DNA of 64,000 nt from Meiothermus sp. Pnk-1 (GTDB lineage Bacteria; Deinococcota; Deinococci; Deinococcales; Thermaceae), in contig NZ_QKOB01000001.1 of assembly GCF_003226535.1 (NCBI RefSeq), forward strand, positions 434,001-498,000. Direction: 5' to 3'. The notes beneath the pieces were generated by a model that was not told the origin of the DNA, searched no databases, and saw only the letters and a program-made list of their open reading frames with translations. This document shows positions 2,077 to 45,365 of the stretch, piece after piece. A program made the position numbers and the translations under genes. Every line of letters starts with the position of its first letter. Position 1 is the first letter of the stretch.

Positions 2077-2646
2077 ATGTACAAGGCCGAGGCTACCACG
2101 GTAGTTCCTGCCGACGTCGGCACAGTTTGGAGTTACATCTCTAATTACCAAAACTTTGACCAGTTCATGTCGCATGTAGAAAAGGTGACCATGCTAGGGG
2201 ATCGCACCTCTGAGTGGCGTTTGCGTGGCCCGCTGGGCATCCCGGTCACTTGGAAGGCGGTGACCACGGTCATGAACCCGGCCCGGGAGTTGGCCTGGCA
2301 ATCGGTGGAGGGCTCGATAAAAACCCAGGGCCACATCCGCGTCGAGCCGGAGGGAGAGCAAACCCGTATAGAAGTTTATGTCGAATACACCCCACCCGGT
2401 GGGGCAGTGGGAGAGGCGTTCGCCAGCTTGTTCAAGAATCCGCAAAAGATGCTCGAGCAGGACCTGGAGAACCTGCGCCAGATCATCGCGAGCTGGCCTG
2501 CGCACGAAGCTGTTCCGCCCGACCCGGAGGCTGAACTGGATGCCTCTTCCGACACCGACGCACCCGCTCCCCCCACCGCCTCCTCCACCCCTAACCCGCT
2601 CGAGTCGGAGTTGGTGAAAAAAAAAGACCGCTCAAGGCTACCCTGA
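2077..2646 (+). CDS. SRPBCC-family lipid/cofactor-binding protein
   Basis: A 189-residue protein. Residues 1-145 are a complete SRPBCC domain: it opens with YKAEATTVVPADVGTVW, has a WRLRGPLGIPVTW strand pair and ends in the long helix EQDLENLRQIIASW. The last 45 residues are a low-complexity acidic/proline/threonine tail. Such domains bind hydrophobic ligands; some act in membrane-lipid or quinone handling. An AGGAGG site precedes the ATG. The gene ends in GTG-A9-GAC..., and its TGA (2644-2646) overlaps the start region of the lipid kinase, which is readable only in the +1 frame. One extra A in the A9 run would fuse the two proteins. Confidence 0.85.
   Translation: MYKAEATTVVPADVGTVWSYISNYQNFDQFMSHVEKVTMLGDRTSEWRLRGPLGIPVTWKAVTTVMNPARELAWQSVEGSIKTQGHIRVEPEGEQTRIEVYVEYTPPGGAVGEAFASLFKNPQKMLEQDLENLRQIIASWPAHEAVPPDPEAELDASSDTDAPAPPTASSTPNPLESELVKKKDRSRLP
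2617..2625 (+). other. A9 homopolymer at SRPBCC/lipid-kinase frame junction (candidate slippage site)
   Basis: Nine consecutive A bases lie between GTG (2614) and GACCGC. The SRPBCC frame reads KKKDRSRLP-stop through it. Insertion of one A gives KKKRPLKATLIHNPNAGG, the proper N-terminus of the following kinase. A run of this length is the known transcriptional slippage signal in Thermus thermophilus dnaX. A sequencing error cannot be excluded. Confidence 0.5.
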
Positions 2647-3578
2647 TCCATAACCCTAACGCCGGAGGGGCGGGGGCCATCTCGAGCGCCGAGCTCGAGG
2701 CGTTGTTGATCGGGGCTGGGTATGCAGCCCAGCACGTACCTACCGAGAGCCCGGAGGATCTAGAGCGGGCGCTTTTGGACCCCGGCGACTTGGTGGTGGT
2801 AGCGGGTGGAGATGGCACGGTGCGGGCCGTGGCGGGGCGGCTGGCCGGGCGGGGCGTCCCGCTGGCCATCCTGCCGATGGGCACCGCTAACAACATCGGC
2901 GGGGCCTTAGGGTTGGTGGGGAGCCCCGCCGAGCTGATTGGCGGGTTGGCGGAACCGCAGCGCAAAACCTATGACTTGGGATGGGTGCGTGGACCCTGGG
3001 GGGAAGACTTCTTTTTGGAAGGGGCTGGCTGGGGCCTCTTCGCCGCCACTATGGCTGCTTATGACCCCGAGGCCGGGAAAAGCCCACTTCGCGCCCTTAC
3101 GTCTTTCGTCCAGGCCGTTTCGAGCTTCCAGCCTTGCCCTTTGCGGATATCCCTCGACGGCGAAGAAGTGGATGAACCAGCGGTGCTCTTGTTGGAGGTG
3201 ATGAATACCCCGGCGCTGGGGCCCCGGCTGCGCCTGGCCCCCGAGGCCAGTCCTTGCGACGGCTGGTTCGATGTGGTGCTGATCCGCGAGGATGGTCGGG
3301 TAGGCCTTACCCGTTATCTCTCCGGTCTACTCCAAAACCGGTTGGAGGAGCTACCCAATGTGACCGTACATCGGTGTAAGCGCTTGCAGCTTGAGTGGGA
3401 CGGTTCACCCTTCCACCTGGACGCCGAGATCCGCACGGCGGAACGTCCCGCGCTGGTGGAACTCGAGCTCCGGCCTGCAGCGCTCGAGCTTTGGTTACCC
3501 GCTGGGGTCCAGCCCCCGGAGGAGACCCCGGCGCAGCTCGGAAAGCTTCCGCCTGGGGCCACTCCCCAGGCTACCTGA
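2643..3578 (+). CDS. Diacylglycerol kinase-like lipid kinase (DAGKc/YegS family)
   Basis: The product has the DAGKc catalytic core: the N-terminal HNPNAGG strand-loop, the nucleotide-binding VVAGGDGTVRAVAGRL, and LPMGTANNIGGALG, followed by the C-terminal beta-sandwich domain. Family members phosphorylate diacylglycerol, sphingoid or related lipids with ATP at the membrane face. The start is unusual. The open frame reaches back to 2595 but has no ATG, GTG or TTG before a TTG at 2703, which would remove the NPNAGG motif. The options are a rare CTG at 2643 overlapping the upstream TGA (C-TGA overlap), or access through slippage in the A9 run, either as a fusion or from GTG 2614. I give 2643 as a compromise. 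The PHP gene follows closely. Confidence 0.82.
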   Translation: MIHNPNAGGAGAISSAELEALLIGAGYAAQHVPTESPEDLERALLDPGDLVVVAGGDGTVRAVAGRLAGRGVPLAILPMGTANNIGGALGLVGSPAELIGGLAEPQRKTYDLGWVRGPWGEDFFLEGAGWGLFAATMAAYDPEAGKSPLRALTSFVQAVSSFQPCPLRISLDGEEVDEPAVLLLEVMNTPALGPRLRLAPEASPCDGWFDVVLIREDGRVGLTRYLSGLLQNRLEELPNVTVHRCKRLQLEWDGSPFHLDAEIRTAERPALVELELRPAALELWLPAGVQPPEETPAQLGKLPPGATPQAT

Positions 3579-24796: not shown

Positions 24797-25422
24797 AGCT
24801 CCTCCGGGTCTGCGGCTTCGTGGAAGACCTCCATTGGGGACGGGGGGCTGGTCGGCGAAGTGGGGGGGGGAGCAAACTCGGGATGAAGCCGGGTATACTC
24901 CCACAGCTTCCCGACGATCTCCTTCACCACCTCCTGCACCCGTCGCCCGTCGGTGGAGACATGGAGGTGGGCCTGGCGGTAAATCGGCTCGCGCTGGAGG
25001 AATATCTGCTGAATACGCCCCAGGGGATCTCCCCCTTCGAGCATAGGGCGCTTGCCCGGCTTGCGTCCCACCCGCTCGAAGATGGTTTGGGGGCTGGCCC
25101 ACAAGGCCACCACGAGGCCCCGGTTCAGCAATTTTTGGCGGTTTTCTGGGTTCATGAAGGTCCCACCGCCCAGCGAGAGCACCAGGAAGTCTTTGTGCAC
25201 CAGTTCGCCCACCGCCTCGGCCTCGAGGCGGCGGAAGGTCTCTTCGCCCAGGTGGCGAAAGATGTCGGCGATGGTGAGCCCGGTCTCGCGCTCTATATAG
25301 CCGTCCAAGTCGATGAAGTGCAGCATTAGCTCGTGCGCCAGCTCCCGCCCGATACGGCTTTTACCCACCCCCATGAAGCCCGTGAGGGAGACCCAGGTGG
25401 TGGGGCGGTCAATGTGCAGCAT
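24793..25422 (-). CDS. aroK: Shikimate kinase
   Basis: A 209-residue kinase that phosphorylates shikimate at the 3-OH. It has the P-loop GFMGVGKS, DLDGYIERETG for shikimate binding, LSLGGGTFMNPENR and the lid region GKRPMLEG. The C-terminus carries an extra proline/serine-rich tail of about 25 residues. ATG 25422 has TATCCT 6 bases upstream. The alternative ATG 25470 adds 16 residues encoded by the repeat-like sequence at 25459-25525, so it is less likely. aroB overlaps the end. Confidence 0.94.
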
Positions 25423-29091: not shown

Positions 29092-30018
29092 TCATTCACC
29101 GCCTTCAAGTTTGATAGCTAAGGACTCATCGCCGCGCACCAGGGTAGCTTCGTTTGCGGTCATGGTTTTGACCAGGACTTCGGTACCGGGGAGCTTTTCT
29201 CCCACCGGAACCACGACATAGCCTTCCTTGGTCTGGAACACCGCCACGCTGGTCGGCCCGAGGGTGGTCATGACTAGCTTGATCCCCTGTTCCTGCACGA
29301 ACCCGGCCAGCCCGGAGGGGGCCGCTGGGGCCGGCGGCGCGGCGGGTTGAGAGGCCGCCGCGGTTTGGGGAGTAGCGGGGCGGGGGACGGGCTGGGCCAC
29401 CTCGCGCTCGAGGGGGCTAAGCCGCAGAGGGAGCGCCCCCCCGGAGAGGCTGGCCCCGCCTGCCAGGGAAGCCGGAACCCCAACGATCTGTGGGGCTGCA
29501 ACCTGGGGGTGGGGGGTGACCGGGGTAGGGGTCGGATTGCTCCGGGGCAGCGATGGACCCGGCAGAGGGACGCTGGGTTGTCGGACCTGAACCCGGCCCG
29601 AGGTGCTGGGGATCGGGGTGGCCGGTGGCAGGCTAGCCATAGCGGGCGGCGCAGCCGTCTCGATGATTAGGGGCACGAAGGGGTTTGGCGGAGCCTGTCC
29701 CTGCACCCGCCCGGGCACCCGGGGGCCAGGGGTACTGGCCTGGCCCCCGGTCTCCGGCTGAGCTGGGGCCTGGGTCGCCAAGAAGGGGATCGGCAGCACC
29801 TCGAGGGGCCGGGCCGGCGCCACGGTTCCCGGGGCCTGAGAAGTCGGGGGGATGGTTCGGGGTTGGGAGGTGGTCTCGCCGGTCGGTGGGAGGGAGCTAG
29901 CCGCCTGGTTCTGCCCAGGTAAGAAGAACAGCACGTACCACAGCGTGACCACCAAGACCAGCGCCGCCACCGCGATCAACACCTTGGTGGACTGAGGGAG
30001 CTGCCTGAGCCAACTCAT
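29092..30018 (-). CDS. pilW: PilW/PilP-like pilus assembly protein
   Basis: A 308-residue protein in the position of Thermus pilW, between pilO and pilQ. One N-terminal transmembrane helix (about 12-34, VLIAVAALVLVVTLWYVLFF) is followed by a 180-residue proline/alanine/threonine-rich linker and a compact C-terminal domain (about 225-305, ending with VKTMTANEATLVRGDESLAIKLEGGE) like the PilP/GspC homology region that docks on the secretin. The linker probably spans the periplasm. It overlaps pilO by 4 bases. Confidence 0.82.
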   Translation of the reverse strand: MSWLRQLPQSTKVLIAVAALVLVVTLWYVLFFLPGQNQAASSLPPTGETTSQPRTIPPTSQAPGTVAPARPLEVLPIPFLATQAPAQPETGGQASTPGPRVPGRVQGQAPPNPFVPLIIETAAPPAMASLPPATPIPSTSGRVQVRQPSVPLPGPSLPRSNPTPTPVTPHPQVAAPQIVGVPASLAGGASLSGGALPLRLSPLEREVAQPVPRPATPQTAAASQPAAPPAPAAPSGLAGFVQEQGIKLVMTTLGPTSVAVFQTKEGYVVVPVGEKLPGTEVLVKTMTANEATLVRGDESLAIKLEGGE

Positions 30019-30719
30019 GGCCGACCTCCCTGGCCCGGGGCCGGAGTGCCGCCTTGCGGCTGGTTAGCGGGCTGAGCTGCGTTTCCCGGGGCTTGGTAGA
30101 CATACACCGTCATGGTCAGGCTGGTGTTGATGATGGGGTCGGCGGTTTGTCCGGAGGTTCCGCCCAGGCTCATGTTGAGCCCGGAGATGCTGCTGAAACG
30201 CTGCAGCTCCTCCAAGCGGCGCAGGAAGACGTACAGCTCGGAGAAGGGCGATTCGAGCTGGAGGGCCAGGTTCACGCTGCGCACCCCCTGCACGTCGGTT
30301 TGGGCCACCGGCGAGCGCTGGATGCTGCGCAGCGTGACCCCGCTTTGCCGGGCTTGCTGGGCCAGCGAGGCCAGCACATCGGCTAGGCGTTCTTGCGGCG
30401 GCAGCTCGCGCAGGAACTGCTGCTGGCGGGCCTCGAGCTCGGCGATGGTGCTGCGGAGTTGCCCCAGTGCGGCCTGGGCGCGGCGGCCCCGGTCGCGGGC
30501 GGCTTGCAGATCGTCAATGCCGAGGTCTTCAGGCAGCGGGCCGTTCACCGGGATGGTGGGGGCTACCGCTTCGCCGTTGCTGCCCAGCCGGACAAACTCG
30601 GCCTGTTGGCGTAAAGGCTGCACCATCCAGTAAAACCACAAAATCCCTATTACGATGGCGGCCCCGATGGCGATCAAGGACCACTCGCGCTGTCCGAATC
30701 TAGCGAGCACCCTGCTCAC
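30015..30719 (-). CDS. pilO: Pilus assembly protein PilO
   Basis: A 234-residue inner-membrane protein. It has a short cytoplasmic start, one transmembrane helix (about 14-34, LIAIGAAIVIGILWFYWMV), a coiled coil (about 70-115) with ELEARQQQFLRELPPQERL, and a ferredoxin-like domain containing QLESPFSELYVFLRRLEEL. PilO pairs with PilN in the alignment complex that links PilM to the secretin. The C-terminus is a Pro/Gln/Gly-rich tail. It overlaps pilN by 20 bases. Confidence 0.92.
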   Translation of the reverse strand: MSRVLARFGQREWSLIAIGAAIVIGILWFYWMVQPLRQQAEFVRLGSNGEAVAPTIPVNGPLPEDLGIDDLQAARDRGRRAQAALGQLRSTIAELEARQQQFLRELPPQERLADVLASLAQQARQSGVTLRSIQRSPVAQTDVQGVRSVNLALQLESPFSELYVFLRRLEELQRFSSISGLNMSLGGTSGQTADPIINTSLTMTVYVYQAPGNAAQPANQPQGGTPAPGQGGRP

Positions 30720-31332
30720 CTCCTTGTGCTTCGTCGACCATCCCCACGGTGGCGCTGAAGGTGTAGAGGCCGCGGTTTTGGTCGAGGGTGGCTTGTTGGA
30801 AGTTGATCCCGAAGCGGGGGGAGGATTCGAAGGCTTCGATGAAACGGACCAGCTGGGCTTGGCCCAAGGCTTCGCCCTGGAGGCTGAACTCCACCTTCAC
30901 CGGCTTGCCGTCGTAGAGGTTATCTCCGGGAGCAGGCGAGTTGCCCTGACCCCGCAGGCTGGCCCCGATGCTGCGCAGGGCTACCCCGAAACGGCCGTTC
31001 TCGCGGGGGATTTGGTTGACGAAAGCGGCGATGTTGTCTGACCAGCGTATCCGGCGACTCTCCAGTTGCTGCCGTACCTGCTCCAAAGGTTGCAGCTCCT
31101 GCTGGCGGCGGAGCAGATCTTGTTGCTCACGGATAGCGGGCCGGAGCACGTCCACCTCCAGCCGCAGCTGGTCGCGTTCATCCTCGAGGGCCTGGAGCTG
31201 GCTCCAAGCGGAATAGTGCAGATAGCCCACGATGCCCAGCACTACGGCCACGAAGAGGATCGCCACCAACCGCCACCAGCCGGGCTCGACCCGGCGGCGG
31301 AGGTTTTTGGGGAGGAGGTTGAGCCTAATCAA
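30700..31332 (-). CDS. pilN: Pilus assembly protein PilN
   Basis: A 210-residue inner-membrane protein. It opens with the conserved cytoplasmic peptide MIRLNLLPKNLRRR, equivalent to the INLLP motif that docks in the PilM groove. A transmembrane helix (about 22-42), a coiled coil (about 48-95) and a ferredoxin-like domain follow. It overlaps the shifted 3' end of pilM by 8 bases and pilO by 20, so the genes are coupled. Confidence 0.93.
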   Translation of the reverse strand: MIRLNLLPKNLRRRVEPGWWRLVAILFVAVVLGIVGYLHYSAWSQLQALEDERDQLRLEVDVLRPAIREQQDLLRRQQELQPLEQVRQQLESRRIRWSDNIAAFVNQIPRENGRFGVALRSIGASLRGQGNSPAPGDNLYDGKPVKVEFSLQGEALGQAQLVRFIEAFESSPRFGINFQQATLDQNRGLYTFSATVGMVDEAQGGEQGAR

Positions 31333-32465
31333 GCGGGTTCACCCCCCGTAAGGCCAGGCCCAGCGGAACGGTGAACTCGGGGGCCAGGCTTTTGAGGTAG
31401 TCCCCGTCAAAGCGGCTTTTATCGAAGGAGATGCTTTGCCAGGGATTGGCGGGCTCGAGGGGAATTCCCAAGGTGTCCGAGAGCAGCGGGACCAGGCCGC
31501 GCAGCTTGCTGCCCCCCCCCGGCCACAAAGCCCTGCTCGATCCCCAGGTCGCCCACTTGCACCCGGAAGAACTCCAGGCTGCGCCTTAGCTCGGTGGTGA
31601 GCTCGACCAGCACCGGGCGGATGGCATCGTACATGCGGGCCGGGTTGAAGCGCTCGCGCTCGGCGTCGAAGTCGAGGAGAAGCTCTTCGTCTTCGGTGGG
31701 GATGGTGGCCAAACCGTAGCTCTTCTTAGCTTCCTCCGCCGCCACCGGGTCTAAATTGAAAGCCCGCCCAATGGCGGCGGTGAAGTCTTTGCCCGAGAGG
31801 TTGATGACGCGGTTCAGCAAGAGCCGCTCGCCCCGGGTGAGCACTAACGCGCTGGATTCGGCCCCGATCTCCAGGAAGAGCGTCACCGGAGCCTGCCCGC
31901 CCTCCGCTTTGAGCTTGTGCTCCATTGGCCTGAGCCCGGCGAAGGGTTTCACGTCGATGACCAGGGGCTCGAGCCCGGCGGCCTTGATGGCTTCAACCAG
32001 CCCTGCGATGGTCTCCTGGCGAGCCGCTCCCACCACCACTTCCATCTGCTCCCCGTCCGCGATGCTCTCCGGGTCATCCAGGGTAGCGAAGTCCAGCACG
32101 ACCTCGTCGATAGGGAAGGGGATGTACCGCTCGGCTTCCCAGCGCACGGCCTCCTCGAGCTGTTTGGGCAACATCTTGGGCACCTGGATGTTACGGGTGA
32201 TCACCGCCAAGTTGCTGGCGGCGGCCACCACGTAGCGTTTGCGGGTGCGCAACTCGCCCAGCATATCGCGTAACTCCCCGGCCAACACCCCCGGTTCCAC
32301 GATAGCTCCGTCCTGGATGGTGCCTGGCGGTGTAGGACGGATGGCCAAGCCGCGGAGGGTGGGGGGGTGGCCGGTCAGTTCCACCAGCTTGAGGTTGGCC
32401 GAGCCGATCTCGAGGCCCAAAGCCTCGACCCGTGGCCTTAACAAGCTGCTTAGTAGCTCTCGCAC
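31325..32465 (-). CDS. pilM: Pilus assembly ATPase-like PilM, frame-split at a G9 run
   Basis: An actin/FtsA-like cytoplasmic protein that binds PilN. It opens with LLRPRVEALGLEIGSANLKLVEL and contains VVAAASNLAVITRNIQVPKM, LFLEIGAESSALVL and RRSLEFFRVQ. The frame running from 32465 passes FVAGGG in a run of nine G (31512-31520) and continues as an unrelated 27-residue tail, ending at 31419. The true family C-terminus (GGGSKLRGLVPLLSDTLGIP...FTVPLGLALRGV) continues in the -1 frame to 31325. With eight G the protein would be 379 residues, the normal length. So it is a sequencing error, a slippage-dependent gene or a phase-variable allele. The start is GTG 32465 with AAAGGGGG upstream; a TATACT box lies at 32489-32494. 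Confidence 0.88.
31512..31520 (-). other. G9 homopolymer causing frame shift in pilM
   Basis: Nine G on the coding strand at the GGG of FVAGGGS. Eight are needed to read through to the family C-terminus; nine give a truncated protein with a foreign tail. Confidence 0.75.
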
Positions 32466-44366: not shown

Positions 44367-45190
44367 TCGAGCGGTTTTCCCCGGCCAAGGTCAACCTGGG
44401 CCTGTCGGTGCTGGGCAGGCGGGCGGACGGCTACCACCAGCTGCACACCCTCTTTGCCGCGCTCGACGTGGGTGACCGGATCGCCCTCGAGCCCGTCCCC
44501 CAGGGCGTTCACCTGGAAGTCAGGGGGGCCGATCTACCAACTGGGCCAGGGAATCTGGCCTATCGGGCGGCGCAGGCCTACCTGGAGGCGGCGGGGAATC
44601 CGGGCGGGGTGCGGATGCTGCTCGAGAAGCGCCTGCCCGTCGCCGCTGGGCTGGGGGGGGGCTCGGGGAATGCGGCCACGGTCCTGCTCGGCCTGCGGCA
44701 GCTCTACCCGGCGCCGCTGGACCTATTTCCCATCGCCCGAGCCCTAGGGGCGGATGTACCGTTCTTCCTGCGAGGAGGGCTGGCCGAAGCGCGGGGGATC
44801 GGGGAGGTGCTCTCCCCCCTCGAGCCCCTCCGGCTCCATCTGGTGCTGGTCAACCCCGGCCTGGCGGTTTCCGCCACGGAAGCTTACCAAGTCACGAAGC
44901 CCGACGACTACGCTCCCGAACTGCCCGTCGCCGCCATCCTGGCGGCCCTGAAAGGGGGGGAAGAGCCTCCCTGGTGGAATAGCCTCGAGGCCCCGGTCTT
45001 CCGCCTCCGCCCCGAGCTGGCCGAACTCAAGGCGGCGCTCCGGGCGTTCGGGTTGCGGGGCGTGCTGATGTCCGGTTCGGGCTCGACCTTCTTGGCCCTG
45101 GCCTCGGACCCAGCCCAAGCGCAGCATCTCGCTGCCCGGCTGCGCGAACGCTTTCCGCGCTTTTGGATTCGCCCAGCCCAAAGTGCCTGA
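44363..45190 (+). CDS. ispE: 4-Diphosphocytidyl-2-C-methyl-D-erythritol kinase
   Basis: A 275-residue GHMP kinase, the step after next to IspD in the MEP pathway. It has the opening FSPAKVNLGLSVLGRRADGYHQL, the phosphate loop LPVAAGLGGGSGNAATVL, GADVPFFLRGG and the last motif VLMSGSGSTFLAL. ATG 44363 overlaps the ispD stop. An in-frame ATG at 44351 is possible but would lie within ispD. Confidence 0.96.
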   Translation: MIERFSPAKVNLGLSVLGRRADGYHQLHTLFAALDVGDRIALEPVPQGVHLEVRGADLPTGPGNLAYRAAQAYLEAAGNPGGVRMLLEKRLPVAAGLGGGSGNAATVLLGLRQLYPAPLDLFPIARALGADVPFFLRGGLAEARGIGEVLSPLEPLRLHLVLVNPGLAVSATEAYQVTKPDDYAPELPVAAILAALKGGEEPPWWNSLEAPVFRLRPELAELKAALRAFGLRGVLMSGSGSTFLALASDPAQAQHLAARLRERFPRFWIRPAQSA

Positions 45191-45231
45191 GGTCAGGCCA
45201 TTTTCAGCCGGAGGGTGTAAGATCAGGCTTG

Positions 45232-45365
45232 TCACCGGGGGAGCCCGGCCACACGGCCTGGGCTGAGAGGGCGCAAGCCCGACTCTTGGAACCTGATCCG
45301 GGTCATACCGGCGTAGGGAGAGTGACCAGAGAAAGGCCCCTTCTCGGTGACACGAAGGGGGTTTT
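45232..45365 (+). promoter_or_regulatory. TPP (thiamine pyrophosphate) riboswitch
   Basis: The aptamer (45232-45326) shows all conserved parts: GGGGAGCCCGG, CTGAGAGGGCG (CTGAGA at 45263), ACCTGATCCGGGTCATACC and GCGTAGGGA. P1 pairs GTCAC (45232) with GTGAC (45322). The expression platform has a hairpin CCCCTTC/GAAGGGG (45337-45360) whose right arm is the ribosome site of thiB, 5 bases before ATG 45366. A GGTGAC at 45346 could pair instead with GTCACC of P1, which gives two exclusive folds. With TPP bound, the ribosome site should be hidden. Confidence 0.95.

Follow-up and report, generated by a model that had tools for sequence, protein, structure and literature searches.

The closest described counterpart to the locus considered here is found in the sortase-dependent pili of Bifidobacterium breve, where, as in the pilM gene of our window (the whole stretch of 64,000 nucleotides that was analysed), a pilus gene contains a G run beyond which its frame is lost, and a single base makes the difference between a truncated and a complete product (PMC9187656). 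In B. breve, however, the tract is present in two clusters of one genome and in other strains, it lies close to the 5' end with a length of about ten or eleven G, and both the mixtures of lengths and the pili were measured (PMC9187656), whereas pilM carries a private G9 late in the gene, known from one deposited sequence, and its relatives are in frame. A second precedent comes from a related organism, Thermus thermophilus, in which polymerase slippage on the A9 run of dnaX has been shown to supply both products of the gene (PMC5009743, PMC1088944). Here again, as in pilM, a nine-base run stands at a frame junction, but it is a run of A, and both products are functional; unlike pilM, the dnaX gene of the present genome and a second junction in the window, at 2617, resemble this system. 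The T. thermophilus PilM (structure 2YCH) belongs to the same family and stands in the same gene order as the protein described here, and it is essential for the DNA transporter and for pili (PMC6325625). The break reported in an earlier note on this DNA, and its likely effect on piliation and DNA uptake if the sequence is right, are well founded. The protein in 2YCH is intact, whereas the PilM of our window lacks everything after its GGG motif.

The window belongs to a 3.51-Mb draft in 36 contigs, a genome of Allomeiothermus type. Read directly in the sequence, the minus strand at 31512-31520 holds nine G within pilM, the letters around the run being GTGGCC GGGGGGGGG CAGCAAGCTG and the codons at the run GCC GGG GGG GGG CAG CAA and onward. 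The identity of the gene is established by matches above cut-off to Pfam PilM_2 and TIGR01175 and by the adjoining pilN, pilO and secretin genes. The operon runs in the order pilM-pilN-pilO-pilW-pilQ, all four frames besides pilM being open, and comprises the following features:

31512..31520, minus strand: G9 run in pilM, eight G in the sister species (sequence reading and comparison)
31419..32465, minus strand: deposited pilM, with a GTG start and 348 codons, of which the final 30 bear no relation to PilM (Pfam PilM_2, NCBIfam TIGR01175)
31325..31511, minus strand: the 61 codons and stop that should complete pilM, left out of frame, on which purifying selection persists
30700..31332, minus strand: pilN, TTG start, overlapping the family-frame pilM stop by 8 bases (Pfam PilN_bio_d)
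30015..30719, minus strand: pilO, intact (Pfam PilO)
29092..30018, minus strand: intact open frame at the pilW position, with no Pfam match, named from the T. thermophilus gene order (PMC8578077)
26778..29108, minus strand: pilQ secretin, intact (Pfam Secretin)

Elsewhere in the window, a TPP riboswitch (Rfam RF00059) lies at 45227-45337 on the plus strand, upstream of an open frame (45366) whose product resembles a periplasmic binding protein.

Direct reading confirms that nine G throw PilM out of the family frame after FVAGGG, 83% of the way along the gene, and into an unrelated tail whose stop codon ends at 31419. The deposited protein, from the GTG at 32465, therefore has 348 residues, 318 native and 30 foreign. 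Read with eight G, the gene follows the family frame for 379 residues to a TAG stop at 31327-31325, which overlaps the TTG start of pilN (31332) by 8 bases, as the earlier note had expected. Its other frames and coordinates are likewise right, and its estimate that the last 50 residues are lost needs amendment: with 318 native residues against 379 in the family frame, the loss is of 61, and the complete C-terminal part that should follow the GGG motif is replaced by 30 unrelated residues.

The nearest available genome is that of a congener with a chromosome of 3,249,394 bases, which we take to be Meiothermus (Allomeiothermus) silvanus DSM 9946 and which is called the sister species throughout. 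Its PilM is 96% identical over the shared part, and its pilM has G8 at the same place, so the two genes differ here by a pure change of length, G9 against G8. The sister-species protein also matches 2YCH (E 2e-145), with the alignment running through GGGSKLRGL and beyond. G8 recurs in three Meiothermus sequences, all in frame, and in the remaining relatives the three glycines are written with synonymous interruptions and SKLR continues in frame. Across the 41 genomes searched, three of which gave no match and one of which has its copy cut by a contig end, no relative with a complete match has a broken pilM. Given these interrupted glycines, and since this genome uses GGG and GGC more than the other glycine codons, the pilM run is an accident of glycine codon choice; judged from the sequences compared, it is an ordinary Gly-Gly-Gly codon run and no conserved slippery element.

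This distribution bears on the proposal, made in the earlier note, that the run is phase-variable, that is, that it moves between eight and nine G at a useful frequency and thereby switches piliation and competence. Slippage can revert any G9 run, a comparable pilus switch is known in B. breve (PMC9187656), and the site stays mutable through the G8 that four related sequences carry. On the other side, the tract is not conserved, most relatives interrupting it, and none of them is out of frame, so that no off length is seen beside the on length; the site falls late in the gene; MutS and MutL are present in the genome, for which reason a mutator background was also rejected; and the window has fewer long G runs than chance predicts (11 G-octamer matches against 28 +/- 7.6 in shuffles). 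On the strength of the tract's poor conservation, the lack of any relative in the off state, the late site and the mismatch repair genes, we consider a maintained switch unsupported and unlikely. The more specific version, in which a pilM G8/G9 switch toggles type IV pili and natural transformation in part of an Allomeiothermus population, is less probable still. Our literature search for pilM phase variation, or for a pilM defect in Meiothermus, returned nothing relevant.

A more serious rival is an error of sequencing or assembly, under which the strain would have eight G and an intact pilM, the consensus having added one G. A single miscount in a 36-contig draft would look identical to a real +1 slip, and published work cautions that a G tract may have another length in the real population than in the deposited sequence (PMC9187656). 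The genome contains about 219 runs of at least eight G, 18 of them of at least nine (figures derived from counts), and one wrong call among so many would be unremarkable. Against this, most runs of at least nine G, and nearly all of the sampled G8 runs in coding sequence, are in frame. Runs of at least nine G lie within the open frames of gyrB, radA, hemL, lipB, glnA, ispE, a Trk-type transporter and others (gene names assigned by reading translations). In a sample of 65 out of about 201 G8 runs, 50 lay in one continuous coding frame; a further 14 fell in non-coding DNA, where the strand changes or at the edge of a gene, and the one case that looked like a shift proved to be a gene boundary. 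Such continuity at most G8 and longer runs indicates a draft in which long runs are not generally miscounted, and a general homopolymer error in the assembly was rejected on these grounds.

The lengths of the runs point the same way. The sister species has eleven runs of nine G, and the run in gyrB is nine long in both genomes, unchanged since the two species parted, which speaks against phase variation as well as against error. An alignment with the sister species covering 33.5 kb shows just two runs of at least seven bases that changed purely in length, G9/G8 in pilM and A9/A8 at 2617; long G runs in this genome, as far as these comparisons go, appear not to be wildly mutable. A single miscount and a single mutation are both still easily accepted. 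Two further runs deserve mention as observations in their own right. G11, the longest G run found, lies inside a 606-codon open frame with repeated motifs (L001, 1501-1511). In L061 (1500-1510), C9 on the coding strand stands between two long frames of 505 and 514 residues, in a protein without a family match; it is possibly another break of this type, sited on a mobile element, and would fit errors or mutations at runs of nine alike.

The portion of pilM that is now out of frame gives some measure of when the extra base arose. From the run to the end of the gene, 14 of the 19 differences from the sister species fall at third positions, with dN 0.042 and dS 0.36, as compared with dN 0.019 and dS 0.43 upstream of the run. 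The excess of amino-acid change in the out-of-frame end is not significant (p 0.28) and lies inside the range of other pairs. The end of the gene is thus still constrained, and the frameshift is taken to be recent; an old pseudogene was rejected on the same purifying selection. By this reasoning the family frame was probably in use until recently, or is still in use. The rest of the system tells a similar story: the motor ATPases, PilC and ComEC have intact genes elsewhere in the genome which, together with the intact secretin, led us to reject a wider loss of the pilus system and indicate that it had not decayed. Purifying selection to the very end of the family frame and an otherwise intact pilus system are also what a sequencing error would leave, and we regard an error as the main rival, possible but less likely than a real slip.

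Persisting selection would also be expected if the frame were corrected during expression, with RNA polymerase dropping one G or adding two, or the ribosome skipping a base in GGG GGG GGG C, and some full-length PilM being made. Thermus dnaX does use transcriptional slippage, and for herpes thymidine kinase frameshifting at a very low level has been described on a G run (PMC5009743). In transcripts of Escherichia coli and Buchnera, however, all homopolymer insertions were in A/T runs, homopolymer deletions were rare, and G/C runs were judged not to be prone to slippage (PMC5574713). The pilM run, being of G, is not of the type on which bacterial RNA polymerase has been reported to slip, and with insertions confined to A/T runs, correction by the polymerase, which the earlier note had put forward, is unsupported. 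Neither does any relative have an out-of-frame pilM that would need such repair, every full match being in frame, and folding gave no strong hairpin abutting the run (no known slippage hairpin served as a yardstick). Correction in expression is, to our mind, the least probable of the readings weighed here.

The case is quite different at the second junction. The earlier note had remarked that two nine-base runs stand at frame junctions in this window, which is correct: the window has four such runs (A9 at 2617, G9 at 24862, C9 at 31512, which is the pilM run, and G9 at 44653), and two of the four, in pilM and at 2617, lie at junctions. At 2617-2625, on the plus strand, A9 joins two frames:

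2077-2646, plus strand: SRPBCC-type gene (Pfam Polyketide_cyc2)
2631-3578, plus strand: YegS-type lipid kinase frame (Pfam DAGK_cat and YegS_C)

In this genome and in the sister species alike, the first ATG, GTG or TTG in the kinase frame is the TTG at 2703, and this is already past the conserved ATLIHNPNAGG with which the kinase catalytic domain begins. From 2634 to 2702, a span of 23 codons, the two species show 8 differences, every one of them synonymous when read in the kinase frame, and the stretch is therefore very likely translated in that frame. The run has nine A here and eight in the sister species (L084, 1485-1492), neither of which joins the frames; a transcript with seven or ten A would fuse them into a protein of 499 or 500 residues. 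In two other relatives the kinase starts at an ATG, and no SRPBCC gene precedes it. The dnaX genes of the two species differ in a comparable way, the run being A9 in this genome, with the long product in frame (L116, 1501-1509), and A10 in the sister species, with the short one in frame (L117, 1501-1510), as expected if polymerase slippage supplies both products; the length of that run seems free to drift.

The missing start codon, the synonymous differences, the unjoined A9 and A8 and the dnaX precedent together make the junction at 2617 a good candidate for lipid kinase expression that depends on RNA polymerase slippage, and a stronger case than pilM. Among the papers searched, none links a diacylglycerol kinase with transcriptional slippage. 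The suggestion that one slippage mechanism serves both runs does not hold, and we rejected it: slippage is tied to A/T runs, so that A9 fits RNA polymerase slippage and G9 does not (PMC5574713, PMC1088944), and the two runs differ in their relatives. They should be judged apart and not pooled. A further A9 run (L115, 1501-1509) stands between a 77-residue frame and an overlapping 395-residue frame without a Pfam match; the product is possibly an insertion-sequence transposase read through slippage.

What remains for pilM is the simplest option, and one absent from the three that the earlier note had listed: that the sequenced clone recently acquired a +1 mutation of the ordinary type. The G8, a chance result of three glycine codons spelled GGG GGG GGC, would, we propose, have gained one G through ordinary slippage during DNA replication in the sequenced lineage or clone; the new frame would then swap the last 61 residues, just after the GGG motif, for 30 unrelated ones, most likely leaving PilM non-functional in that clone. 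That a private and recent replication slip of this kind took place we hold to have about an even chance of being right. The best reading of the pilM G9 is accordingly a private, recent loss-of-function allele rather than a maintained switch, with an extra base that, we infer, is real in the DNA and a truncated PilM that would fail. The G9 is a real difference in the deposited sequence, but ordinary in kind.

Keeping this G run apart from the genome's A runs guards against a false common mechanism and directs attention to the junction at 2617 as the better candidate for slippage. If the extra base is an error, the deposited record should be corrected. If the deposited sequence is right, and with PilM being essential in T. 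thermophilus, the sequenced isolate would be expected to lack pili and DNA uptake, which would matter for the choice of strain in genetic work.
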